Below, piece by piece: positions 7,369 to 20,469 of a stretch of DNA of 24,747 nt (its first letter is position 1; every line of letters starts with the position of its first letter). The notes beneath the pieces were generated by a model. That model saw only the letters and a program-made list of their open reading frames with translations. It had not been told where the DNA came from and searched no databases. The translations under genes were made by a program, and so were the position numbers. The stretch lies in the NCBI GenBank assembly GCA_903821905.1, contig CAIJMQ010000066.1, positions 1 to 24,747 on the forward strand, in the 5' to 3' direction. Origin of the DNA: an uncultured bacterium (GTDB lineage: Bacteria; CAIJMQ01).

Positions 7369-8768
7369 TTATTATCCTTAATTTCTACTATTCTCCAGGA
7401 AGTCCAATCCAACAGTACGTCAGCTATATAAGTATTAGAACTCGTCAAAATTCGGTCTGGATTACCTATTAATTTAAGTGGTATTCGAACATTGATTTCT
7501 TTTGCATGACGTTCTATATTTATGCTATCCAATGGAAGACTATGATTCTGGTCGAGAATCTTATGTTCTAAAGCTCCGAATTTGATATGAATTTTAGGCA
7601 TTTCACTAAAAGGAGTGTTTTTGCTGTAACCAAAAACAAAAAGTGAGAGCCCTACGGTTTCTCCCAAAGGTCGCGATAGATTTAGAGAGTATACGAGTGC
7701 ATCATCTTCAAGATGAAGGGACTCTTTTTCTAATCCAACAAAAACAGATTTTTCTTCGTCAAGAAGTTCTTCCGGCATTTGTTGAAGAAATTCTTCTCTA
7801 TCAGATTCAAGCGATATAACGGGAGCTTCTTTCTTTAGGTCAATTACAGGGAAATCTCCAAATAACTCGTTGGCTCTTATAAATGACAAAAGATACTTTG
7901 CACTCTCATTGTATTGAGAGCGATGTTTTTTAATGGCATTATAATTAGTCGTGACCTCTTTGGGTTCCAAAGGAAAAAATCCCCAATCGGAATTCTGTGA
8001 AAGCATATTAGGAGGAAGAAGTTGGTTATTAGGGTGGTATCCATTGGGTTGAGACCATCTTTTAAAATGAATAAGATATGGGTAAACTTCTGTTTTTAAT
8101 TCATTTTCTAAATCCCATAAAGCAACTCGGGTAAATAAGTATAGTGACTGGTGGTCTGGATTATGGTCAGAAGGATGCGAGACGAATATCTTTGTCGGTT
8201 TAAATTCTTCAATAATAGTTTTTAAATCTTTCAATATCTCATCAGCTTTATAGGGAGTACCAGGGCGAAAAGCATTTTTATACGGAACTTCCCTTACATC
8301 TGTAAGTATGCTTCTTGCTGGCTGAGTATCTTTTCCCCAGTGAGAGTACCAGATTGCTAAAGTGCGAAAATCAGGATATCCTAAAAAAATCAATTGGTCG
8401 GGTGAAATTCCTAAAACCTTATCTGCTTCCAGAGCTTCATCGTGACGTACTAAACCCATTTGTTGAGCTGCCTTTGGCATTATAACTGGTCTTTTACGAT
8501 ATAAAATAAATGACCATTGATTTTGGTCTCCGTATGTTAGAAACACAACTTTGATGGGTAGATTCATTTTGGTTGCTCTTTGTATAATTCCTCCGCATCC
8601 AAGCACTTCATCGTCGGGATGGGGGGCAAGTATAAGAATACGGTCTTGTTGGGTCAATGTAAGAGTTTCAGGTGTTTTAGAGACAAAAGATTCTTTTGCA
8701 TTGCATATTACAATCCAAGTGACTGCTAAACATATAATGGTTGTCAAAACCAAGTATTTTTTTATCAT
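7365..8768 (-). CDS. Secreted PIG-L/LmbE-family deacetylase with C-terminal extension
   Basis: A 467-residue protein with an N-terminal signal peptide (MIKKYLVLTTIICLAVTWIVICNA, cut near 24), so it acts in the periplasm or outside. The PIG-L/LmbE zinc-dependent N-acetyl-sugar deacetylase domain follows: LAPHPDDEVLGCGG (His50, Asp52, Asp53) and HPSDHNPDH (His198, Asp201, His202, Asp205, His206), matching the family's zinc and catalytic sites. After about residue 330 comes a beta-rich extension of unknown nature that may bind polysaccharide. Family members deacetylate N-acetylglucosamine-type substrates, so envelope glycan or exopolysaccharide modification is plausible. The gene is 9 nt after the GNAT gene and overlaps the membrane Fe-S gene by 4 nt, so it is in the same transcription unit. 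Confidence 0.88.
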   Translation of the reverse strand: MIKKYLVLTTIICLAVTWIVICNAKESFVSKTPETLTLTQQDRILILAPHPDDEVLGCGGIIQRATKMNLPIKVVFLTYGDQNQWSFILYRKRPVIMPKAAQQMGLVRHDEALEADKVLGISPDQLIFLGYPDFRTLAIWYSHWGKDTQPARSILTDVREVPYKNAFRPGTPYKADEILKDLKTIIEEFKPTKIFVSHPSDHNPDHQSLYLFTRVALWDLENELKTEVYPYLIHFKRWSQPNGYHPNNQLLPPNMLSQNSDWGFFPLEPKEVTTNYNAIKKHRSQYNESAKYLLSFIRANELFGDFPVIDLKKEAPVISLESDREEFLQQMPEELLDEEKSVFVGLEKESLHLEDDALVYSLNLSRPLGETVGLSLFVFGYSKNTPFSEMPKIHIKFGALEHKILDQNHSLPLDSINIERHAKEINVRIPLKLIGNPDRILTSSNTYIADVLLDWTSWRIVEIKDNK

Positions 8769-8777
8769 ATGGAACCT

Positions 8778-9449
8778 TTAAAATTTTTTACCCAATATAT
8801 AATGGGGTACTTTTCTTTTTAAATAGTTGTGTAGATGCGAAAATTTTCCTTCAAATAAAAGTGTAAATCCTAGTTTAGTAAAGAACATCTTTGCGCCTTC
8901 AGACATAGTGCTGATGTGGATGCCGTGTATATTTTTTCCCTTCAAAAAGTCTAAATAATAATTGACTAAATTCTTGCCTATATTAAGACCTCTATAATTT
9001 TCATCAATGTTTATATGCAGAGTGGCTGGATATTGTTTGGAAAAGTCAGGATTAAAAAATTCTCCTCTCATAATGCTTGTAATGATACCCATTAAAAATG
9101 TCCTTGTATTTCTCTTGAATAAAACATTTCTGAATAATATTTTTACAAATAATTTGGGTAAAAGTTTTGATATGAATACTCGCCGCATTAGTTTAACATC
9201 TTTTGAACCTATAATATAACCTATAACTTTATTTTTACTGATAGTAACAAAGCACGATTTTGGCTCGTAGTTCGTGAAATAAAGCGTTAATACATCTGCA
9301 AGGATTTCCTTATCATCAAAAATTTCCGTGTAAGGTATTCCCAGAAAAGCAGTTTGGCAACTTATTCTTCTGATATCTTTTCTATCGCTATTCTTAAATT
9401 CTCTGATGTAGATGTCCTTATTTTGAGAAACCTGTGAATTTTTTAGCAT
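8778..9449 (-). CDS. GNAT-family N-acetyltransferase
   Basis: A 223-residue cytosolic acyltransferase using acetyl-CoA; the acceptor is unknown. The GNAT fold is seen as an opening IREFKNSDRKDIRRIS, a beta strand CFVTISKNKVIGYIIG, and motif A, LHINIDENYRGLNIGKNLV, with the pyrophosphate-binding R-G-x-x-I-G loop at 153-158, followed by SEGAKMFFTKLGF (motif B). A long basic hydrophobic insertion (about 86-135, FISKLLPKLFVKILFRNVLFK) lies between the halves and may contact membrane or substrate. It lies 13 nt downstream of the cupin and 9 nt upstream of the PIG-L gene. The pairing with an N-deacetylase hints that both act on amino-sugar substrates, but that is speculation. Confidence 0.85.
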   Translation of the reverse strand: MLKNSQVSQNKDIYIREFKNSDRKDIRRISCQTAFLGIPYTEIFDDKEILADVLTLYFTNYEPKSCFVTISKNKVIGYIIGSKDVKLMRRVFISKLLPKLFVKILFRNVLFKRNTRTFLMGIITSIMRGEFFNPDFSKQYPATLHINIDENYRGLNIGKNLVNYYLDFLKGKNIHGIHISTMSEGAKMFFTKLGFTLLFEGKFSHLHNYLKRKVPHYILGKKF

Positions 9450-9462
9450 TTACTGAAATAAT

Positions 9463-9804
9463 CTAATCTTTTATCATAACCAGCAGCATCTTGAATTTCT
9501 TGATTGCTTTTACTGCGTGGGGTTTATTCGCAGGCATAATAAGCATTTCACCTTTTTTTACTATATGGGAGTTACCTGAAATAATAATTTTAGCAGTACC
9601 GTCGACTATGTAAACTAAAGCGTCAAAAGGTGCAGTGTGTTCACTTAATCCCTGTCCTTTATCAAATGCGAATAAAGTAACTGTTCCTATATCTTTCTTA
9701 ATGATTTCCCTACTGACAATAGCATCAATCTGATATGTTAATAACGATGTCAGATCAATAACCCTACCTTTTACATTTTTAATTTTTGTTTTTTCTCTTT
9801 TCAT
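9463..9804 (-). CDS. Small cupin-domain protein
   Basis: A 113-residue single-cupin protein of the beta-barrel fold, probably binding a metal or small molecule; function unknown. Cupin motif 1 corresponds to GLSEHTAPFDALVYIVDGTA with His56, and motif 2 to KKGEMLIMPANKPHAVKA with His96; the HxH pair of classic motif 1 is reduced to one histidine. It is the first gene of the minus-strand run that continues to the left edge of the window. A TATAAT lies at 9835-9840 on the minus strand, about 30 nt before the ATG, without a good -35. No strong Shine-Dalgarno is visible. Small cupins next to redox genes are often sensor or detoxification proteins, but nothing in the sequence decides this. Confidence 0.85.
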   Translation of the reverse strand: MKREKTKIKNVKGRVIDLTSLLTYQIDAIVSREIIKKDIGTVTLFAFDKGQGLSEHTAPFDALVYIVDGTAKIIISGNSHIVKKGEMLIMPANKPHAVKAIKKFKMLLVMIKD

Positions 9805-9900
9805 AGTTATAAATTTAAAATCTAAAACACCATCATTATATTATCTATTGAGCAAAATTAGAAACCTGAGATATACTTTATAGGTGGTTTAAATTGAAAG

Positions 9901-10344
9901 TTATTTAGTTAAATATTTGCTTAGTGCCAAAGCGGTTTTTTGACCGACGAATCCATCAGCTATAAGGCTTTTTGCTTTCTGAAATTTCTTTATTGCACTT
10001 TTGGTTTCTGGTCCCATTTTCCCATCAACTGGGCCTTTATAGAAGTCGGCATTTTTTAAGGCTGTCTGTACTTGTCCAATTGATAAAGTTACTTTAGTGT
10101 TGCTTGCTGTTTTATTTTGGGATGAGCTTTCCGTGCTTGGAGTTTTTTCAGTTTCACCTTCCAAATAACTAATTTCTTGATCCTTGCTCTGCAATTCTTC
10201 CTCGAGGAAGCTTACGCGAGCTTGAAGTTCTTGTACTTGATTTTGAAGTTGTTGCGATGTTTGAGTATTAGCATTTTTACCAGTTGTTGCACAACCTGCC
10301 AACAATAAAACAAGAAAAGCTACAATTAGACATCTTGGAAACAT
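9901..10344 (-). CDS. Peptidoglycan-binding lipoprotein with coiled coil
   Basis: A 147-residue envelope lipoprotein. The signal peptide MFPRCLIVAFLVLLLAGC ends in a lipobox LAGC with lipidated Cys18. Residues about 30-66 form a coiled coil (QLQNQVQELQARVSFLEEEL), followed by a Ser/Thr/Lys linker. Residues 88-146 are a PG_binding_1 domain with the usual VQTALKNADFYKGPVDGKMGPETKSAIKKFQ and a closing VGQKTALAL. There is no catalytic domain, so it probably tethers the outer membrane or a partner to the cell wall. A good ribosome site (AAAGGAGG) precedes the ATG. It lies 38 nt downstream of the OmpA/LysM gene on the same strand, so the two are very likely co-transcribed and work at the same membrane-wall interface. 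Confidence 0.92.
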   Translation of the reverse strand: MFPRCLIVAFLVLLLAGCATTGKNANTQTSQQLQNQVQELQARVSFLEEELQSKDQEISYLEGETEKTPSTESSSQNKTASNTKVTLSIGQVQTALKNADFYKGPVDGKMGPETKSAIKKFQKAKSLIADGFVGQKTALALSKYLTK

Positions 10345-11620: not shown

Positions 11621-12004
11621 ATGAAAAAACTGCTTAAGAATAAAAAGGGTTTTACCCTAGTAGAGTTGATGGTCGTAGTCATTATTGTAGGTATTTTGGC
11701 AGCAGTTGCAGTCCCGCTATATAGGTCAAACTTAAAAAGAGCAATGTCAAGTGAAGGAGTAGCTCTGGTTGGCTCTATAAGGACAGCTGAAAGAGTGTAT
11801 TATGCTGAGCATAATAAATATACAGCCACAGCGGCTGATTTAGGCGGTATTGACTTAACTGGTAATAAATACTTTAGCACAGCTCCAGCTCTTACTTCTG
11901 TAGACGCTACTCATTTTACTGCTACTGTTACAGGTTCGGGAGATGCAGCAGCAGTTACTGCGGCTATAGACGAGGCTGGGAATATAACGGTAGGTGGAAT
12001 ATAG
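11621..12004 (+). CDS. Type IV pilin / type II secretion pseudopilin-like major subunit
   Basis: A 127-residue class III prepilin. A short basic leader ends in KKG, with FTLVELMVVVIIVGILAAVAVPLY after it: prepilin peptidase cuts Gly10-Phe11 and methylates the Phe, and Glu15 is the conserved mature Glu5. The hydrophobic N-terminal helix builds the filament core. The globular part begins GSIRTAERVYYAEHNKYTATAADLG, as in PilA/GspG-like subunits, and the C-terminal half is rich in Thr, Ser and Ala with no disulfide cysteine pair. The ribosome site GGGAGGTGA is strong, which with the good promoter and following terminator suggests a highly expressed monocistronic gene. No pilus assembly genes are in the window. 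Downstream GT-C enzymes suggest that it may be glycosylated (inference). Confidence 0.93.
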   Translation: MKKLLKNKKGFTLVELMVVVIIVGILAAVAVPLYRSNLKRAMSSEGVALVGSIRTAERVYYAEHNKYTATAADLGGIDLTGNKYFSTAPALTSVDATHFTATVTGSGDAAAVTAAIDEAGNITVGGI

Positions 12005-12054
12005 TGTAGAAACCCTGCTTAACGGGGTGAGAAAGAACATAACAGTTGCTTATA

Positions 12055-12104
12055 GTGGGTTTTACCCCCCACGTCTTTTAAGACGTGGGGGATTATTATT
12101 TTTA
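12055..12104 (+). terminator. Strong hairpin terminator after the pilin gene
   Basis: A near-perfect stem CCCCCACGTC/GACGTGGGGG with a six-base AT loop (12066-12091) is followed by ATTATTATTTTT, as in a Rho-independent terminator. Just upstream GTGGG (12055-12059) could pair with CCCAC (12068-12072) and thus compete with the terminator stem. The preceding 3' region also holds ACCC...GGGT (about 12011-12028). Confidence 0.8.
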
Positions 12105-12191
12105 GTTTATCTTATTTTGTTTTCCTCTGATTATTTCTTCTATTTTCTTATTGTGATATTCTATATATAGATAAAAATTTTATTAAATTAC

Positions 12192-12203
12192 TGAGAATTC
12201 TCA
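12192..12203. repeat. 12-bp perfect palindrome, possible operator
   Basis: TGAGAATTCTCA is perfectly self-complementary, and after one mismatched pair the symmetry continues for three more bases on each side (TTA...TAA, 12188-12207). It lies 75 nt before the TMTC-like gene, in a region where no clear -35/-10 pair could be assigned. Confidence 0.4.
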
Positions 12204-12223
12204 ATAAACTAAAGGAAGATTTT

Positions 12224-12259
12224 GTGGAAGGGGTGTTAAACTTACTTTGTATTTGTTAA
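12224..12259 (+). other. Possible 11-codon leader ORF ahead of the TMTC-like gene
   Basis: GTG at 12224 is preceded by GGAAG at a workable distance and opens an 11-codon frame (VEGVLNLLCIC) ending 18 nt before the ATG of the membrane glycosyltransferase, which itself lacks a ribosome site. The same GGA(A)GATTTTGTGGAAG context serves as the real start of the second glycosyltransferase gene at 14451-14466. It may be chance. Confidence 0.2.
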
Positions 12260-12277
12260 ACTAAACCCAATTAGCAT

Positions 12278-14449
12278 ATGAGGTTTTTATACAGAAGAAG
12301 AGAATTGAATAGAGAAGTTAATGTGGTTCTTCTAATATTTTTACTTGCAGTAATTGTCTATGCTAATTCTTTAGTCAACTCGTTTGTATGGGATGACAGG
12401 TATCTTATTGTAGAGAACAATCTTATTAAAAATTGGCGCAACATCCCTCAGTTTTTTACGACTCAACTTTATCAAGGTAGTGGTCAAGAATCCCATTTTT
12501 ATCGCCCTATTCAGAAATTGTCAATTTTTTTAGATTACTCTATATGGAAATTAAAGCCCTTAGGTTATCATATCACCAACATACTAATTCACGCCCTGAA
12601 CGCTGTTTTAGTCTATGTTCTTTTAAATTTGCTCTTTAGAAAAAAAGAAATATCACTAATTTCAGCTCTATTGTTTGCGGTTCACCCTATTCATACTGAA
12701 GTAGTTACTTATATATCAACAAGAGCAGACCTTTTAACCGGTCTATTTATTTTTTCCTCACTAATATTATTTATTCAGTATCGAAAACATAGTAATCTGA
12801 GAGGATATTATTGGGGGGCAATCCTATGTTTCATATTCGCCCTATTATCTAAGGAGCCAGCAGTAATACTTCCTTTTATATTGATATTGTGCGATATTTC
12901 TTTTAATCGGAACTATGTTCCGATTATCTCTAAAGGAACCCCGTGTTTTAAACTAAGAGTTTGGTTGAGTGATTATTTACCTTTCTTGTTGCTCCTCTGT
13001 GTGTATATTGTTCTTAGGCTGACGGTCTTAGATTTCGGCTTGTGGTTAAATGAGACTAATCTTTATCTAAGGATGATTACTTTGGGAAAAGTTTTCTTTA
13101 CTTATATAAGATTGCTTTTTCTGCCCTTCGGTCTTCATATGGAATATACCCTTAATTGGGCTGTATCATTTTTTCAGCCCCAGATTTTGATTTCCAACTT
13201 TCTATTTTTCTCGATTCTTCTGGTTGTTATTAGGAGTTATAAATACTCTAAGATATTCTTCTTTGCTTCTGCCTGGTTTTTATTAACACTAGTGCCATCG
13301 TTCAATATAGTTACCATAAATGCATTTATGTCTGAAAATTGGCTGTATATCCCTTCCGTAGGGTTCTTTGTTCTATTTTCTTTGGGAGTATTCAAATTAG
13401 CTGATTGCATGAAAACTCAGCACATTCGCAAAAGTTTCTTAATTTTTTCTATTGTTCCTATTTTGGCTATCTATTCCATTCTTACAATTATACGCAACAG
13501 AGATTGGAGGGATGAAATGACTCTTTATAAAAATACTTTAAAGTATTCACCTAATAGTGCGAGGGTACATAATAATCTGGGTATTGTTTATGCACATATA
13601 GAGAATTACGAAATGGCCATAAAAGAATTTGAGGAAGCAATAAGATTAAAACACGGATATTTTGAAGCTTACAATAATTTGGGAACTATATATCAAAGGC
13701 AAAAACTATATGAACAAGCTATCAAACAGTATGAAAAAATCATAGAACTGAATCCTAATTATTCCGGAGCTTACAATAATTTAGGAGGAACTTATATCTT
13801 ACTGGGAAGATATAAAGAGGCAATAAAAGAGTGTGAAAGGGCATTGGTTTTGAGAGAAGATTATGTAGAGGCCCATGCTAACCTGGGAACTGCTTATACT
13901 TGCATGGGAAAACTTGAGCAAGCAGTTACACATTACAAAAAAGTTATAGAGTTAAATCCCGATTATCTGGAAGCCTATACCAATTTGGGGGTAGTCTATA
14001 ATACTCAGGGAAAATATTTAGAAGCAATAGAGACGTTAAAAGAAGCTGTGAGGTTAAAACCAAAACGTGCAGAAACCCATAATGATTTAGGAACTGCCTA
14101 TAAGAACTTGGGGGAATATGAAAAAGCAATCCATGAGTATAGAATAGCTATAGAGTTAAATCCTGAATATGCTCAAGCCTATAATGATGCTGGGGTAATA
14201 TACAGCATTCTTGGGAACTATGAGGAGGCAACTAAACACTATAAAAAAGCGATAGAGATTGATGGGAACTTCTTCTTACCATATGCAAACCTGGGAATTA
14301 CCTATCTTGATACAAAGAATTATAGACTTGCTGAGGAATATTTAAAACAAGCGGAGAAATCGGGATTACCCGTACAAAAGTATCTTGATGAACTCAAGAT
14401 ACTTTCTACGGATACAGAAGTTATCCCAGAAAGTTCCAAAACAAAGTAA
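12278..14449 (+). CDS. TMTC-like GT-C membrane glycosyltransferase with eight TPRs
   Basis: A 723-residue inner-membrane protein. Residues about 12-410 hold some ten transmembrane helices with hallmarks of the TMTC O-mannosyltransferase group: NSFVWDDRYLIVENN (Asp39-Asp40, the likely catalytic acid site of the first external loop), SHFYRPIQKLSIFLDYSIWKL with GYHITNILIHALN, and LFAVHPIHTEVVTYISTRADLLTG. Residues about 425-705 are eight TPRs of 34 residues (NNLGIVYAHIENYEMAIKEFEEAI and so on), a protein-binding solenoid that in TMTCs recognises the acceptor. The predicted reaction is transfer of a lipid-linked sugar to Ser/Thr of exported proteins. The ATG at 12278 has no ribosome site. The gene follows the pilin and precedes a second GT-C-like gene by 10 nt. 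Family resemblance is strong; substrate is inferred. Confidence 0.85.
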   Translation: MRFLYRRRELNREVNVVLLIFLLAVIVYANSLVNSFVWDDRYLIVENNLIKNWRNIPQFFTTQLYQGSGQESHFYRPIQKLSIFLDYSIWKLKPLGYHITNILIHALNAVLVYVLLNLLFRKKEISLISALLFAVHPIHTEVVTYISTRADLLTGLFIFSSLILFIQYRKHSNLRGYYWGAILCFIFALLSKEPAVILPFILILCDISFNRNYVPIISKGTPCFKLRVWLSDYLPFLLLLCVYIVLRLTVLDFGLWLNETNLYLRMITLGKVFFTYIRLLFLPFGLHMEYTLNWAVSFFQPQILISNFLFFSILLVVIRSYKYSKIFFFASAWFLLTLVPSFNIVTINAFMSENWLYIPSVGFFVLFSLGVFKLADCMKTQHIRKSFLIFSIVPILAIYSILTIIRNRDWRDEMTLYKNTLKYSPNSARVHNNLGIVYAHIENYEMAIKEFEEAIRLKHGYFEAYNNLGTIYQRQKLYEQAIKQYEKIIELNPNYSGAYNNLGGTYILLGRYKEAIKECERALVLREDYVEAHANLGTAYTCMGKLEQAVTHYKKVIELNPDYLEAYTNLGVVYNTQGKYLEAIETLKEAVRLKPKRAETHNDLGTAYKNLGEYEKAIHEYRIAIELNPEYAQAYNDAGVIYSILGNYEEATKHYKKAIEIDGNFFLPYANLGITYLDTKNYRLAEEYLKQAEKSGLPVQKYLDELKILSTDTEVIPESSKTK

Positions 14450-14459
14450 TGGAGATTTT

Positions 14460-16028
14460 GTGGAAGATACTACATTTAAAAAAAGAGATTTGAATTGGAA
14501 CATGTATTCATTGGTCCTTATTGGACTGATTCTATTCCTGCAGATTTTTCACTCTTACCAATACCCGCAGTTTTTAGATGAATATTTTCACCTTCACTCT
14601 GCTTGGGCTATTGAATATTGGAAGGGTTTTTCCTGTGTGGATTTGTTGCAGGATGCTCCTGTGGGAAGACCGAATTTGTACCCGCCATTTTATCATTCTC
14701 TAATACAAGTGGTTCACCAGACAGGAGTGGACTGGATCACAATCTCAAAGATATTTTCTGTACTCATAGTCCCATTGTTCTGTTTGGTTTTTTATTTTAT
14801 ATTCAAGGATTTAATTTCGGATATATTCGGGTTTATTTTTGTCCTGCTTGTTTTCTCAAATTATGGATTTTTTGATTCATTGATTAACAATATACCTGCA
14901 ACAATTTCCATTATTTTCTGGGGGATAAGCTTTTTTCTTTTTATAAAGAACAGATTCTTGACTTCATCTTTGTTTTTAGCTTTGTGTTTTTATACGCACC
15001 CCATTTTGGGATACGTAGAGTTTATCATGTTGTTTATATGGGCTATCTGGTCCAAGAGGTCAAAGGCGGTTTATTATTTATTGTCTCTGATTATCGCCTC
15101 GCCCTTTATATTTCATCAGTTTTATAATATGAAATATTTTTCTTTTCGGGAAAATTTACATGGGAATTGGTTCTTGGAGTTAAAATTTGTGGAAATTTCC
15201 TTATGCAGTGCGGGAATTATTATCGCTGTCGCTTCTAAAGACAAAAGAGATATAATTAAACTGTTTTTGCTGGCGATGATTTCCGGTGCTATTTTTTCTA
15301 TACTTCCAGGATACAGAGATAGAATTGTTGTTTCTCAAGGTTTTTTCCCCGTAATATTTTTCGCAGCATACTCTGTCTATTATCTTTTTGAAAGAATGTC
15401 GAACCTTAAAAAAAAGATAATACTTCTTTTGAGTATTTTTCTATTTTTTGTATTTCTAAGCCCTTCTTTTCTGTCTTCAAAAGAAGAAAAAAGGTTTGTT
15501 TTATTTGATTCCTTCTTTGTGAATTCCCTTAAAGATGTATTTAGCCAGAGGTCTCACGGTTTTAGTATATGGTCTGCTAAAACTTATGAACCGATTATTT
15601 CTATTATAAAAGGGAACACTGTCCAGGAAGATATTATTTATTCCAATATGTATTCCTTGAGTGTTATGTTTTCTTTGCTTACTGAGCGCCGCACAGCTTC
15701 GGCATTGTTTAGCGAAGCAAAGCCTTTTTTGGATTTTGACAGAGTAGGTGTTTCCAAAATAGTAATACACTTAAAAGATTTAGAACCCCAAAAGGATTCG
15801 GAAGTTTTAAATTATTTTTCCCGGAAAAACTTTACATTGATTGCAGATTTGCCGCTATTTTATATATTCAAGAACCCCAATCCCTTGCAGATTAAAAGTA
15901 TAGATAAGCAAGTTATTATAGACCTTAAAGTGTTGTATGGTTTCTGGACAGCCATTTTTTGTTTAATAACCTTTTCTTATATATGGGAAAGTAGGTGTAA
16001 TAAAAATATAAGGAAGGAAGTGAAATGA
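14460..16028 (+). CDS. Multi-pass membrane protein, GT-C glycosyltransferase-like
   Basis: A 522-residue polytopic protein I assign only to the GT-C-like fold. The start is taken as GTG at 14460, because GGAG lies five nt before it and the frame upstream overlaps the TPR gene; a longer start at 14385 would overlap by 65 nt. After the first helix (MYSLVLIGLILFLQIF) comes PQFLDEYFHLHSAWAIEYWKG, with an acidic pair (Asp40-Glu41) at the place where GT-C enzymes keep their catalytic Asp/Glu. About ten helices follow, then a soluble C-terminal part (about 350-490) and a last helix near 500-520. It lies 10 nt after the TMTC-like gene. Probably a partner enzyme using polyprenyl-linked sugar; neither donor nor acceptor is known. 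Confidence 0.65.
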   Translation: MEDTTFKKRDLNWNMYSLVLIGLILFLQIFHSYQYPQFLDEYFHLHSAWAIEYWKGFSCVDLLQDAPVGRPNLYPPFYHSLIQVVHQTGVDWITISKIFSVLIVPLFCLVFYFIFKDLISDIFGFIFVLLVFSNYGFFDSLINNIPATISIIFWGISFFLFIKNRFLTSSLFLALCFYTHPILGYVEFIMLFIWAIWSKRSKAVYYLLSLIIASPFIFHQFYNMKYFSFRENLHGNWFLELKFVEISLCSAGIIIAVASKDKRDIIKLFLLAMISGAIFSILPGYRDRIVVSQGFFPVIFFAAYSVYYLFERMSNLKKKIILLLSIFLFFVFLSPSFLSSKEEKRFVLFDSFFVNSLKDVFSQRSHGFSIWSAKTYEPIISIIKGNTVQEDIIYSNMYSLSVMFSLLTERRTASALFSEAKPFLDFDRVGVSKIVIHLKDLEPQKDSEVLNYFSRKNFTLIADLPLFYIFKNPNPLQIKSIDKQVIIDLKVLYGFWTAIFCLITFSYIWESRCNKNIRKEVK

Positions 16029-16170
16029 TAACCAAAAAATATTGATGGTAGACAATGAATCTTTTTTGAGGGATATAATAAGTACTCAACTTGAAGCTGA
16101 AGGCTACGATGTTGTTCAGGCAACCAATGGGTTAGAAGGATTAGAAAAAGCGAATGAACTTATTGGCTAG
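16025..16170 (+). pseudogene. Truncated, frameshifted response-regulator receiver fragment
   Basis: An ATG at 16025 overlaps the stop of the preceding gene (ATGA) and follows AGGAAGG, as a real start would. In the ATG frame a stop comes after six codons. One base off, past a run of six A (16034-16039), the reading becomes KILMVDNESFLRDIISTQLEAEGYDVV and on through QATNGLEGLEKANELIG, ending at TAG 16170. This is the first ~45 residues of a REC domain: the acidic pocket is VDNE, where VDDE is usual. The segment that should hold the phosphorylated aspartate (...PDLIILD) is missing. Adding one A to the homopolymer would restore the frame. It is a decayed response regulator, or a frameshift plus truncation caused by sequencing; the truncation makes decay more likely. 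Confidence 0.75.
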
Positions 16171-16245
16171 CGGATATTTATCTTTACTTTATATATTTCC
16201 AAAGAAAGTTATAAATCACACTTCTAATCTTTATGATGCAAAGTT

Positions 16246-16274
16246 TTGACATTATACGGTTAACTGCTTATAAT
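16246..16274 (+). promoter_or_regulatory. Perfect-consensus sigma-70 promoter of groEL
   Basis: TTGACA (16246-16251), 17-nt spacer, TATAAT (16269-16274): full consensus. The predicted start near 16281 gives a ~70-nt leader containing a CCG-TTT-CGG hairpin and a CCTCT...AGAGG pair (16276-16312). No CIRCE inverted repeat (TTAGCACTC-N9-GAGTGCTAA) is present here. Confidence 0.85.
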
Positions 16275-16351
16275 ACCTCTCCGTTTCGGAAGGTTTTCTT
16301 ATCATAAAGAGGCAATCTTCTATTTACAGGTTATAAAGGAGGTAATGTAGT

Positions 16352-17950
16352 ATGGCTAAACAGTTAATTTATAGAGAAGAGGCAAGAGAAGCATTAGAGA
16401 GAGGAATTAATATCTTAGCAAAGGCGGTCAAAGCAAGTTTTGGTCCCAAAGGCAGGAATGTAATACTCGACAAAAAATGGGGTTCTCCTACTATTACAAA
16501 TGATGGAGTTACCATTGCTAAAGAAGTTGAACTAAAAGATCCTTATGAGAATGCTGGAGCACAATTACTGAAAGAAGTTGCGGAAAAGACATCTGATATC
16601 GCAGGGGATGGAACTACTACTGCTGTTGTTTTGGCACAGGCAATATTCAAACAGGGAATGAAGAATATTACTGCTGGTGCTAATCCTATGGTTTTGAAAA
16701 GAGGAATTGAGAAAGCAGTAAATACAGTAATTGATGAACTTAAAAAACATGCTCAAAAAATAGAGAAAAAAGAGGAAATGATACAAGTTGCGTCTATTTC
16801 GGCCCATAATGATAAAAAAGTTGGAGAGCTTATTGCAGATGCAATGGAGAAAGTTGGTAAAGAAGGTGTCATTACTGTTGAAGAAGGAGAGAAGCTTGAG
16901 ACTCAACTGGACGTTGTGGAAGGAATGCAGTTTGATAGAGGCTACCTTTCCCCATATTTTATTAATGACCCGGATAATATGGAAGTTTTTTTAGAAGACC
17001 CTTATATTCTTATTCACGAGACAAAAATTTCGGCTGTTCAGGATCTTGTACCTATACTTGAAAAAATAGGTAATGCTCGAAAGCCACTCTTGATAATAGC
17101 AGAAGAGGTTGATGGTGAAGCACTGGCTGTTTTAGTGGTTAACAAATTGAAAGGGATAATCCAATGTTGTGCAGTAAAAGCCCCTGGGTATGGAGACAAA
17201 AGAAAAGCAATGATGGAAGATATAGCGATACTCACGGGAGGAGAGTTTATCTCGGGGGATTTAGGCAGAAAACTTGAATCTGTAACTTTGAAAAACCTCG
17301 GAAGAGCAAAAAGTGTGAGAATTGATAAGGATAATACTACCATAATAGAAGGCAAGGGTAACCCAAAAGATTTAAAAGGAAGAATTGAACAGATAAAGAG
17401 AGAAATTAAAGATACCACATCTGATTATGATAGAGAAAAATTAGAGGAAAGACTTGCCAAATTGGCTGGAGGGGTTGCAGTTATTAGAGTTGGTGCAGCC
17501 ACAGAAATAGAGATGAAATCAAAGAAGGCATTAATGGAAGATGCTCTTCATGCTACCAGAGCTGCAGTGGAAGAAGGCATAGTTCCCGGTGGTGGAGTAG
17601 CTTTACTGCGATGTATACCCGCCTTAGAAAAAATGTCTCTTGAGGGAGATGAAGCAATTGGTTTGGATATAATTAAAAGAGCATTGGAAGAACCGATAAG
17701 ACAAATAGCTATTAATGCGGGATTTGACGGTTCTGTAATTGCTAACAAGGTAAAAGAATCCGGATTTAATGAAGGATTCGATGCCAATAAAGGTGAATTC
17801 GTGAATATGATTAAGGCGGGCATTATAGACCCTGTGAAAGTTACGCGTTCTGCTTTGAAGAATGCAGCTTCTATATCAGCCCTTATACTCACGACTGAGA
17901 CTTTAATTACGGAGAAGGTAAAAGAAGAAGAGGAAGAAAAGAAAAAATAA
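16352..17950 (+). CDS. groEL: Chaperonin GroEL (60 kDa)
   Basis: The ATP-driven tetradecameric chaperonin. Landmarks in 532 residues are [31 protein letters not shown], the nucleotide-binding [13 protein letters not shown] (Asp86 corresponds to E. coli Asp87), the apical-domain start [40 protein letters not shown], and the equatorial return [23 protein letters not shown]. The tail ends in EEEEEKKK and lacks the Gly-Gly-Met repeats found in E. coli. The N-terminus [16 protein letters not shown] is also somewhat divergent. A strong ribosome site AAAGGAGG precedes the ATG. No groES gene lies upstream or downstream in this window; the preceding item is a REC fragment on the same strand. Identification is certain; the lone setting suggests a relocated gene or a second groEL copy. 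Confidence 0.98.
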
Positions 17951-17981
17951 CCTGATAATTAACAAATAACCAACTAAAACA

Positions 17982-18083
17982 ATGGGAAGAAAAAATAGGA
18001 ATCGTCAAAGAAAAAAAAACAAATTAAGATGGCGCTCCAAAAAGGCAAGTCATCGTGTATTGCCTGGAATGGGTAAAGGGTAA
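17982..18083 (+). CDS. Candidate small, very basic ORF (33 aa)
   Basis: MGRKNRNRQRKKNKLRWRSK continues with KASHRVLPGMGKG and then stops. About 14 of 33 residues are Arg or Lys, like the extended tails of ribosomal or nucleic-acid-binding proteins. It starts 31 nt after groEL ends and stops 9 nt before the shared convergent hairpin, so it would fit inside the groEL transcript. No Shine-Dalgarno precedes the ATG (AACCAACTAAAACA), which weakens it. I do not recognise a family. An A-rich stretch can give Lys/Arg-rich frames by chance, but the Trp, His, Pro and Gly content is not typical of simple A-tracts. Confidence 0.4.
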   Translation: MGRKNRNRQRKKNKLRWRSKKASHRVLPGMGKG

Positions 18084-18092
18084 TAAATAGTT

Positions 18093-18121
18093 TCCAGTAT
18101 TTGGCGGTAACAATTACTGGA
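18093..18121. terminator. Hairpin between convergent groEL and lon
   Basis: TCCAGTA (18093-18099) pairs with TACTGGA (18115-18121) around a 15-nt loop, followed on the plus strand by CATTATTTATTTA and preceded on the other side by A/T-rich sequence. It lies 2 nt from the lon stop and can serve both converging transcripts; it lacks a strong GC stem, so termination efficiency is unclear. Confidence 0.5.
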
Positions 18122-18123
18122 CA

Positions 18124-20469
18124 TTATTTATTTAGGGCGTGTACAAGAACTTCATCAAGGCTTTTGACGAAAATAAATTTCAATCTCTTTTTAACGTGAG
18201 CAGGAATCTCCTCTAAGTCTTTCTCGTTTCTCGCCGGTAAAATTACCTCTTTTATTGCTGCTCGGGAAGCAGCAAGAACTTTTTCTTTAATTCCGCCAAC
18301 TGGAAGAACTTTCCCTTTTAAAGTAATCTCGCCTGTCATTGCTACATCATATTTCACTAATCTGCCGGTTAAAAGAGATACCAATGATGTGGCAATAGCG
18401 ACTCCTGCCGAAGGTCCGTCTTTAGGTACAGCACCATGTGGTACATGTATATGTATATCGTATTTTTCAAAGAAATTCTCATCAATCTTTAGTTTCTTTG
18501 CTTTAGAACGCACATAAGAAAGAGCAGCTTTTGCCGATTCCTGCATAGTTTGTCCTAACTGTCCGGTTAAAGTAAGTCCTTTCTTGCCCCTCATTTTATT
18601 TGTTTCTATAAAAAGTATTTCTCCGCCTTGAGGTGTCCAAGCCAGTCCTGTTGCTACACCAGGTTCAGAAGTGCGTTCAGCAGTTTCAGAGAAAAACTTC
18701 ATTGACCCAAGATAAGAAGCAACGTCCTTTTCATCAACTTTAAAAGGTCCTTTTTTACCTTTAACTATTTCTTTGGCAATCTTTCTTAGGATATTAGCAA
18801 TTTCCCTTTCTGCATTTCTCACCCCTGCTTCCCGGGTATATTCTCTTATAATTTTTTGGATGGCGGAATCGGACATCTTTATATTCTCCGGTTTTAACCC
18901 GTTTTCTTTTATCTGGCGGGGCAGTAGAAACCTTTTAGCAATTATCATTTTTTCTTCTTCGGAATAGCCGGGTAGTTCCAGCACTTCCATCCTATCTCGC
19001 AGTGCAGGGGGGATAGTATCTAAAATATTTGCTGTGGTGATAAACATTACCTTGGAAAGGTCAAAAGAAACATCCAGATAATGGTCACTAAAAGAATGAT
19101 TTTGTTCGGGGTCTAAAACCTCAAGCAATGCAGACGATGGGTCTCCCCTAAAATCAATACCAATCTTATCTACTTCATCTAACATAAAGACAGGATTATT
19201 TGTCCCGGCTCGTCTTACACCCTGTATTATTCTTCCTGGCAAAGCTCCTATATATGTTCTTCTGTGTCCCCTGATTTCTGCTTCATCTCTTATCCCTCCC
19301 AGAGACAATCTGATAAATTTTCTCCCCAAAGCTCTTGCAATAGAATGACCTAAAGATGTTTTTCCTACGCCTGGTGGCCCTAGGAAACAAAGAATAGGAC
19401 CCTTCGTTTCTTTCTTCAGTTTTCTTACAGCTAAAAATTCAAGAATTCTATCTTTTACTTTGTCCAGGTCATAATGGTCTTCGTTTAGAATTTTAGCAGC
19501 GCGTTCTATATCAAGTTTATCCTTTGTGCTTTTCTTCCAAGGAACTGAAACAAGCCAGTCAAGATATGTACGGATAACATGATACTCGGCAGCCTGAGGA
19601 GGCAATTTATCAAGTCTATCAAGTTCTCTCTTTGCCTCTTTCATTGCATCTTGGCTCATACCGGATTCTTCAATCTGTTTCTTCAGTTCTTTAATTTCTA
19701 TTGTATGTTCATCTTCTTCGCCGAGTTCTTTCTTGATGGCTTCTAGTTGTTGTCTTAAGAAATACTCTCGCTGTGCTTTACCGAGTTTTGATTTTGTTTC
19801 CTCCTGGATTTTTGACTGCAGCTGTAGAACTTCCAACTCTTTATTCAATGATACAGCTACTTTATTCAGTCTTTCCATCGGGTCAAGAGTTTCCAGTATA
19901 TCTTGTTGTTCTTTTGGTTCCAAAGAAATATTGGCAGCAATAAAGTCGGCAAGTTTTCCGGGCTCTTGAATATTAAGCGCCGTGATATAACTTTCTTCTT
20001 CTGGAATTCTGGGTGATAAGGATACTGTTTTTTGAAATTGGCTTAAAAGATTTCTCATCCTGGCTTCTATTTCCGGTGTTTTCACAGTCTTTGGCTCGCT
20101 TATTGTGTGAACATCAGCTTTAATGTAAGGTTCTTTTTGTGTAAATTTCCCGATACTTATTCTTTCAATACCCTGGACTAATAAATGAACAGTATTAGTA
20201 GGCAGTTTAAACATTTTTACAACCCGTGCTATGGTCCCGATTTTATATAAATCCTCAAACTTAGGCTCGTCATCTGTCTTTTTCTTTTGTAACACTAACC
20301 CACAGAATTTTTCTCCCACAGATACATCGTCTACCAATTTGATGTTTGCGGGTTTCCCTACGGTTATTGGAACAACCATTCCCGGAAAAACGACAGTATC
20401 CCTCAAAGGCAGAATAGGAAGTTCAGTCGGTATTTTTAATTCAACATCCATCATGCTTTCTTCAGCCAT
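18124..20469 (-). CDS. lon: ATP-dependent protease Lon (LonA type)
   Basis: A cytosolic AAA+ serine protease that degrades misfolded and regulatory proteins. The 781 residues show the LON N-terminal substrate domain (LPILPLRDTVVFPGM onward), the coiled-coil region near 210-285 (REYFLRQQLEAIKKELG), and the Walker A motif GPPGVGKT (364-371). They also show Walker B FMLDEVDKIG (about 428-437), the sensor and arginine finger region, and the protease domain with catalytic Ser687 in KDGPSAG and Lys728 in GGIKEK. Length and architecture are typical of bacterial LonA, so it should be fully active. GAGG lies before the ATG. The gene follows hsp20 by 16 nt and is therefore expected to be transcribed with it from the palindrome-bearing promoter region at 20964-21014. 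Confidence 0.98.
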   Translation of the reverse strand: MAEESMMDVELKIPTELPILPLRDTVVFPGMVVPITVGKPANIKLVDDVSVGEKFCGLVLQKKKTDDEPKFEDLYKIGTIARVVKMFKLPTNTVHLLVQGIERISIGKFTQKEPYIKADVHTISEPKTVKTPEIEARMRNLLSQFQKTVSLSPRIPEEESYITALNIQEPGKLADFIAANISLEPKEQQDILETLDPMERLNKVAVSLNKELEVLQLQSKIQEETKSKLGKAQREYFLRQQLEAIKKELGEEDEHTIEIKELKKQIEESGMSQDAMKEAKRELDRLDKLPPQAAEYHVIRTYLDWLVSVPWKKSTKDKLDIERAAKILNEDHYDLDKVKDRILEFLAVRKLKKETKGPILCFLGPPGVGKTSLGHSIARALGRKFIRLSLGGIRDEAEIRGHRRTYIGALPGRIIQGVRRAGTNNPVFMLDEVDKIGIDFRGDPSSALLEVLDPEQNHSFSDHYLDVSFDLSKVMFITTANILDTIPPALRDRMEVLELPGYSEEEKMIIAKRFLLPRQIKENGLKPENIKMSDSAIQKIIREYTREAGVRNAEREIANILRKIAKEIVKGKKGPFKVDEKDVASYLGSMKFFSETAERTSEPGVATGLAWTPQGGEILFIETNKMRGKKGLTLTGQLGQTMQESAKAALSYVRSKAKKLKIDENFFEKYDIHIHVPHGAVPKDGPSAGVAIATSLVSLLTGRLVKYDVAMTGEITLKGKVLPVGGIKEKVLAASRAAIKEVILPARNEKDLEEIPAHVKKRLKFIFVKSLDEVLVHALNK

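Follow-up and report, generated by a model that had tools for sequence, protein, structure and literature searches.

A gene for a predicted TMTC-type glycosyltransferase behind a type IV pilin gene in an uncultured bacterium: a candidate pilin-accessory cassette

Introduction

TMTC glycosyltransferases are found in animals, and their acceptors are cadherins. Does an enzyme of this type, encoded behind a type IV pilin gene in an uncultured bacterium, glycosylate that pilin? The window analysed here is the whole 24,747-nt contig C66 (CAIJMQ010000066.1) of a 1.30-Mb draft genome (121 contigs, 84% complete). On its forward strand it carries, in this order, genes for a pilin, a TMTC-like protein and a further membrane protein (ORF3), followed by groEL. 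From these letters a sequence-only reading had proposed a pilin O-glycosylation locus. We followed up this proposal by motif, domain and structure analysis of the encoded proteins, by comparison of the site in related genomes, and by a survey of the neighborhoods of TMTC-like genes in other bacteria.

Results

Anatomy of the locus

The three proposed open reading frames were all borne out (Table 1). The first codes for a class III prepilin with the motif KKGFTLVEL, recognized by Pfam N_methyl (E 9e-10) and also by NCBIfam pilin models. It had been called Ser/Thr-rich, and the content is real (17% S+T in the mature pilin); its orthologs at the syntenic site of two relatives (69-70% identical), however, reach 17.6% (G003) and 16.3% (G002) with no TMTC gene adjoining, and we accordingly rejected Ser/Thr content as a sign of glycosylation.

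Likewise, the TMTC gene had been placed directly after the pilin gene, which holds for gene order but not for spacing, as 273 bp with a strong Rho-independent-type terminator lie between the two. We also rejected the terminator as an argument against a pilin-TMTC linkage, because pilin-accessory cassettes typically carry one: in Pseudomonas aeruginosa, such cassettes regularly include a Rho-independent terminator after pilA, which determines accessory-gene dosage; which accessory genes are present depends on the pilin group, and TfpO and TfpW among them are pilin glycosyltransferases (PMC11841053). The layout of such a cassette, with a major pilin, a Rho-independent terminator and an accessory gene on the same strand, is found in the window and also in G003. 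Hairpin-plus-T candidates further occur 3′ of the pilin in G002, G073, G009, G075, G064, G065 and G074 and at loci L081 and L095 (a candidate in G066 is doubtful), such that nearly every pilin-TMTC locus examined has a Rho-independent terminator at this position. Terminators are common after strongly expressed genes, and we therefore treat this feature as weak evidence either way, supportive only.

Table 1. Coordinates of the features of the locus and of the comparison loci
Feature	Position	Strand	Remark
Type IV pilin, 127 aa, presumed acceptor	11621..12004	+	Pfam N_methyl, NCBIfam; orthologs in G003, G002
Rho-independent terminator-like hairpin: 11-bp perfect stem, then ATTATTATTTTT	12066..12091	+	between pilin and TMTC gene
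38-nt imperfect direct repeat, copy 1; exact AGATTTTGTGGAAG common to both copies	12193..12230	+	flanks TMTC gene
TMTC-like protein, 723 aa: putative GT-C membrane domain (~1-410) and C-terminal TPR arm	12278..14449	+	
D39-D40 codons (DD motif, M1, first extracytoplasmic loop)	12392..12397	+	motif definition PMC7801869
TPR repeat region (~residues 428-694), predicted to lie outside the cytoplasm past 11 TM segments	13559..14359	+	
38-nt imperfect direct repeat, copy 2	14429..14466	+	includes the GTG start codon of ORF3 and its ribosome-binding site
ORF3, 522-aa GT-C-like multispanning protein (D40, H44, GRPxLYPP)	14460..16028	+	
Pilin-terminator-TMTC-PilD loci	L195 6749-9908; L196 4666-7801; L197, L198, L199, L200, L201		
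lptF/lptG-TMTC loci	L034 1500-5704; L035 7206-11268; L036 632-3405		L036: only second permease gene complete

ORF3 begins with a GTG at 14460, 10 bp past the TMTC stop codon, with a GGAG upstream. Its predicted product is a multispanning protein that looks GT-C-like; it matched no Pfam, NCBIfam or PDB family, and a single-sequence structure model (pLDDT 43) was too poor to use. Homologs are rare and distant (7/290 genomes), and in the stretches examined (G019, G303, G168) they do not stand beside pilins. In G003, a 77% identical ORF3 lies directly 3′ of the pilin without a TMTC gene. The proposed coupling of the TMTC-like protein to this second GT-C-like protein is therefore in keeping with the spacing of the two genes, but their pairing is secondary. 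The 38-nt direct repeat around the TMTC gene, which was not found upstream of ORF3 in G003, may be the scar of an insertion (the arrival of the gene) or of a duplication. Downstream, a perfect consensus promoter for groEL (TTGACA-17-TATAAT, 12/12 matches) stands at 16246-16274, and groEL is thus probably transcribed separately from the pilin cassette.

A predicted bacterial TMTC-type GT-C/TPR protein

TMTCs are defined by seven motifs, 11 transmembrane (TM) segments and an ER-lumenal TPR arm (Eisenhaber et al., PMC7801869). The N-terminal membrane domain of the window protein, ~410 residues long, keeps motifs M1-M4 (D39-D40, Y75-R76-P77, R149-x-D151 and K192-E193), and the DD motif is nearly invariant among 188 bacterial homologs, 183 and 182 of which have Asp at its two positions. 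In M7 (ERxxY), a motif that contacts the lipid phosphate in TMTCs (PMC7801869) and reads E353-N354-W-L-Y357 in the window protein, the fully conserved Arg is replaced by Asn; the 188 homologs have R (105), H (66) or N (8) at this position. The C-terminal region comprises at least eight TPR units (Pfam TPR_1, E 1.5e-65, 8 stretches).

Searches of the membrane domain against Pfam recovered no significant family match, leaving TMTC_DUF1736 (PF08409) unmatched; this family was matched in only 1/20 bacterial homologs (E 0.005). PDB chains likewise gave no sequence match to the domain, alone or as a profile; the matches listed by structure searches (Foldseek, VIA) were TPR proteins such as O-GlcNAc transferase and designed TPRs, and none of those listed covered the membrane domain. 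No WaaL-like or Wzy_C match was seen in the domain at E up to 10, and a weak Wzy_C_2 match falls outside it, within the TPR repeats (565-635). The TMTC likeness thus rests on motifs, on architecture and on homology to bacterial TMTC-like proteins, many of which share an identical architecture and align with the window protein over its full length. An AlphaFold2 model from 41 homologs (pLDDT 92.3, pTM 0.88) has helices at 7-33, 94-120, 123-144, 146-170, 175-191, 193-212, 226-250, 301-322, 325-342, 359-376 and 381-409, which by hand count fit 11 TM segments, and a TPR superhelix from 413 on. With an odd number of TM segments, the DD loop and the TPR arm would share one side of the membrane, in bacteria the periplasmic one. 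Taken together, M1-M4, the architecture and the homology make the predicted assignment to TMTC-type GT-C/TPR enzymes, as originally proposed, well supported.

TMTC-like proteins are widespread, being found in 25/60 sampled genomes with up to 19 copies each. Full-length homologs in many prokaryotes were already noted in 2021, as to their existence only (PMC7801869), and the bacterial TMTC itself is thus less novel than had been stated. The linkage to pili was not met in the literature searched, and no open-access paper on bacterial TMTCs acting on pilins was found.

The site in the window's own family and in a sister family

The window's phylum is represented by seven searchable genomes. The syntenic site, confirmed by flanking genes that are 52-89% identical, reads pilin-groEL-lon in G002 and pilin-ORF3-lon in G003, and the window genome (G000) alone has pilin-TMTC-ORF3-groEL-lon. 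The accessory genes at this site accordingly vary among close relatives from TMTC plus ORF3 through ORF3 to none. The whole pilin-lon interval (12005-18124 in the window, compared with L033 and L057) is variable, holding TMTC, ORF3 and groEL, only ORF3, or only groEL; groEL is missing at this site in G003. Searches of the three family members turned up no TMTC-like gene. Lack of neighborhood conservation, one of the two observations named beforehand as speaking against the idea of a pilin-modifying enzyme, is hence what the window's own family displays, with TMTC beside the pilin in only one of the genomes examined.

Three TMTC-like genes of a same-class sister family (G004, G005 and G006) lie directly 3′ of lptF-lptG (Table 1), which suggests that this TMTC branch might have a role related to LPS. 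We rejected orthology of these genes with the window gene, given their lptFG linkage and their separate position in the tree. In the broader tree the window TMTC groups with Omnitrophota and Auribacterota proteins (support 99), with its closest relatives in Omnitrophota. Lateral acquisition of the gene by the window lineage is the simplest reading, with loss in the relatives as an alternative.

TMTC-like genes beside pilus genes in other bacteria

An alignment of 20 homologs offered nothing conserved enough to scan contigs with; with a narrower alignment, scanning named bacterial genomes, chiefly Omnitrophota and Planctomycetota, yielded 75 loci. A type IV pilus gene lies within 1 kb of the TMTC gene at five of these and at none of the other ~70. 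At L081, a pilin gene is 90 bp upstream of the TMTC gene; at L095, a pilin, the TMTC and further pilins are embedded in a PilQ-PilB-PilC...PilM cluster; at L075, the TMTC lies within a PilB-PilC-pilin...PilM cluster; at L134, PilC is 37 bp upstream; and at L119, a convergent pilin gene is nearby. TMTC genes adjoin pilins or lie in pilus operons in Omnitrophota, where these are single cases and some of the operons are complete, and in an unassigned bacterium. By our own estimate ~2 such loci would be expected by chance, and the excess is only suggestive. The pilus operon at L075 additionally codes, directly before its TMTC-like gene, for a 657-aa multispanning protein resembling O-antigen ligase/PglL-type enzymes (7999-9972).

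A conserved arrangement was recovered in the phylum of G009, where 7/17 genomes (G073, G009, G075, G064, G065, G074 and G066, of families f5 and f57) have, in this order, a pilin gene, one or two TMTC-like genes and a gene for the prepilin peptidase PilD, abutting or overlapping each other. In an eighth genome (G063), two pilin genes and the first part of a TMTC frame are cut off by the contig end. The TMTC copies of these cassettes form one lineage (support 99), which also includes two unlinked paralogs and is apart from the other paralogs of that phylum. Thus, the expectation that TMTC genes follow pilin genes in relatives failed in the window's own family but is partly borne out elsewhere, in the pilin-TMTC-PilD cassettes of two families and in the Omnitrophota cases; the phylum with these cassettes is a better place than the window to test the idea of pilin modification.

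In a tree of a chosen subset, the window TMTC groups with L063, L075, L081 and L095 (support 98), three of which are pilus-linked. The same neighborhood of the broader tree also holds many unlinked Omnitrophota copies, and pilin linkage requires at least four changes on it, indicating that the linkage arose several times.

Pilus and glycosylation genes elsewhere in the genome

The window's own genome codes for 24 prepilin-like ORFs and for five PilB/GspE-like and three PilT-sized secretion ATPases. Two small GT2 genes (L210 and L211) could supply a polyprenyl-phosphate sugar. The genome also encodes a WaaL/Wzy-like protein (L212), a rival candidate for O-glycosylation.

Discussion

Proposed function and its alternatives

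The most likely role of the TMTC-like protein is to transfer a lipid-linked sugar onto an exported protein, with the adjacent pilin first among the candidates. In the mechanism we propose, a separately terminated type IV pilin gene would be followed by lineage-variable genes for membrane glycosyltransferases, here the TMTC-type enzyme and ORF3. With its extracytoplasmic DD/YRP/RxD/KE site, the enzyme would accept a monosaccharide linked to polyprenyl phosphate, either mannose or a different hexose, and attach it to Ser/Thr residues of a protein bound by the extracytoplasmic TPR arm; the most likely acceptor is the neighboring pilin. The window lineage probably obtained the TMTC gene itself from a source resembling Omnitrophota, with insertion between the pilin gene and ORF3. 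That the locus is a pilin-accessory cassette whose TMTC-type enzyme glycosylates the pilin outside the membrane is a proposition that we regard as evenly balanced, and we likewise put the pilin as TMTC acceptor at about even odds.

Several lines of evidence favor this pilin-cassette reading: the retention of M1-M4 and a modeled helix count matching the reported TMTC topology; the pilin-TMTC-PilD cassettes of seven genomes with their single TMTC lineage, joined by the pilus-linked L081, L095, L075 and L134; the grouping of the window TMTC with L063, L075, L081 and L095; the layout shared with P. aeruginosa cassettes; and the own genome's PilB/GspE-like and PilT-like ATPases, prepilin-like ORFs and GT2 genes. 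Against it stand the presence of TMTC at this site in one genome of its family, with relatives keeping the pilin without it; the sister-family genes adjoining lptF-lptG; the Asn in M7; and the unmatched TMTC_DUF1736. The predominance of surveyed loci without a pilus gene within 1 kb also counts against it, and implies that TMTC-like enzymes mostly do something else. Further, with 24 prepilin-like ORFs in 1.3 Mb, we estimate the chance of an upstream pilin neighbor at roughly 1-2%, and counted this against the reading.

The foremost alternative is that the TMTC-like protein is an envelope glycosyltransferase whose position behind the pilin is accidental and whose substrate is LPS, a different lipid-linked glycan or a large number of exported proteins. 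The insertion at this site, seen in no other genome of its family, the lptF-lptG neighbors in G004, G005 and G006, the rarity of pilus linkage and the high copy numbers per genome all fit such a role; however, the lptFG-linked copies belong to another part of the tree, the closest relatives of the window TMTC include pilus-linked copies, and the pilin-TMTC-PilD arrangement is conserved in another phylum, so that we judge this alternative rather unlikely. The adjacency of pilin and ORF3 in G003 and the possible insertion scar around the TMTC gene would also agree with ORF3 being the pilin-linked enzyme, between which and the pilin the TMTC gene was inserted, merely sharing the transcript. Since G002 has the pilin without ORF3, the distant ORF3 homologs are not beside pilins in the stretches examined, and ORF3 matches no named family and has no usable structure model, we consider this improbable. 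Finally, the Asn in place of Arg/His at the motif that contacts the lipid phosphate in TMTCs (PMC7801869) might point to a catalytically dead or altered protein that supports the assembly of pili as a TPR-based scaffold or chaperone; TPR proteins such as PilF/PilW serve this process, and PilF is among the fold matches of the window protein. Yet the window protein retains DD, YRP, RxD and KE unaltered, and 8/188 homologs have the same Asn, making such a role very improbable.

Beyond the window, the pilin-cassette reading can be generalized: TMTC-type GT-C/TPR enzymes might have been recruited repeatedly, across three or more bacterial phyla, for the dedicated glycosylation of pilins, with their genes in cassettes of the form pilin-terminator-TMTC(-PilD). 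They would then make up a class distinct from both WaaL-like O-oligosaccharyltransferases and TfpW, and would be the bacterial equivalent of cadherin O-mannosylation. We advance this broader claim tentatively, at a little below an even chance.

Significance and comparison with known systems

The conserved pilin-TMTC-PilD cassette names a concrete candidate acceptor for bacterial TMTC-like proteins, and with the gene order recurring in unrelated bacteria, TMTC-type enzymes may represent a type of pilus-modifying enzyme that has not been described before. If so, they would bring a new enzyme architecture to pilin glycosylation, offer a bacterial model of TPR-guided O-glycosylation and bear on the variation of the pili of such bacteria against phages.

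With the eukaryotic TMTC1-4 (CAZy GT105), the window protein shares a putative N-terminal GT-C domain with DD, YRP, RxD and KE, a helix count fitting 11 TM segments and a C-terminal TPR arm predicted to be extracytoplasmic, and differs in having no significant TMTC_DUF1736 match, in ENxxY for ERxxY and in its bacterial host. The prokaryotic TMTC homologs noted earlier are alike in being full-length GT-C plus TPR proteins, none of which was characterized there (PMC7801869). The pilin-accessory cassettes of P. aeruginosa (TfpO, TfpW, TfpX/Y/Z) resemble the locus in their major pilin, terminator and variable accessory gene(s), and two of their accessory kinds encode pilin glycosyltransferases, of which TfpW is a GT-C enzyme (PMC11841053). 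In contrast to the TMTC-type accessory protein of the window, TfpO is a WaaL-like O-oligosaccharyltransferase and TfpW an arabinofuranosyl GT-C. To our knowledge, TfpW has no TPR arm. The PglL/PglS/TfpM O-oligosaccharyltransferases are comparable in glycosylating pilins outside the cytoplasm, and TfpO, TfpM and PglS are often encoded beside their target (PMC12645811); unlike the putative GT-C domain of the window protein, they have a WaaL-like fold and Wzy_C domains. Lastly, in Caulobacter FlmG the substrate of the transferase module, a filament protein, is bound by a TPR module (PMC7591256), the difference being that FlmG is a cytoplasmic GT-B enzyme with flagellin as its target and the TPR module at its N-terminus.
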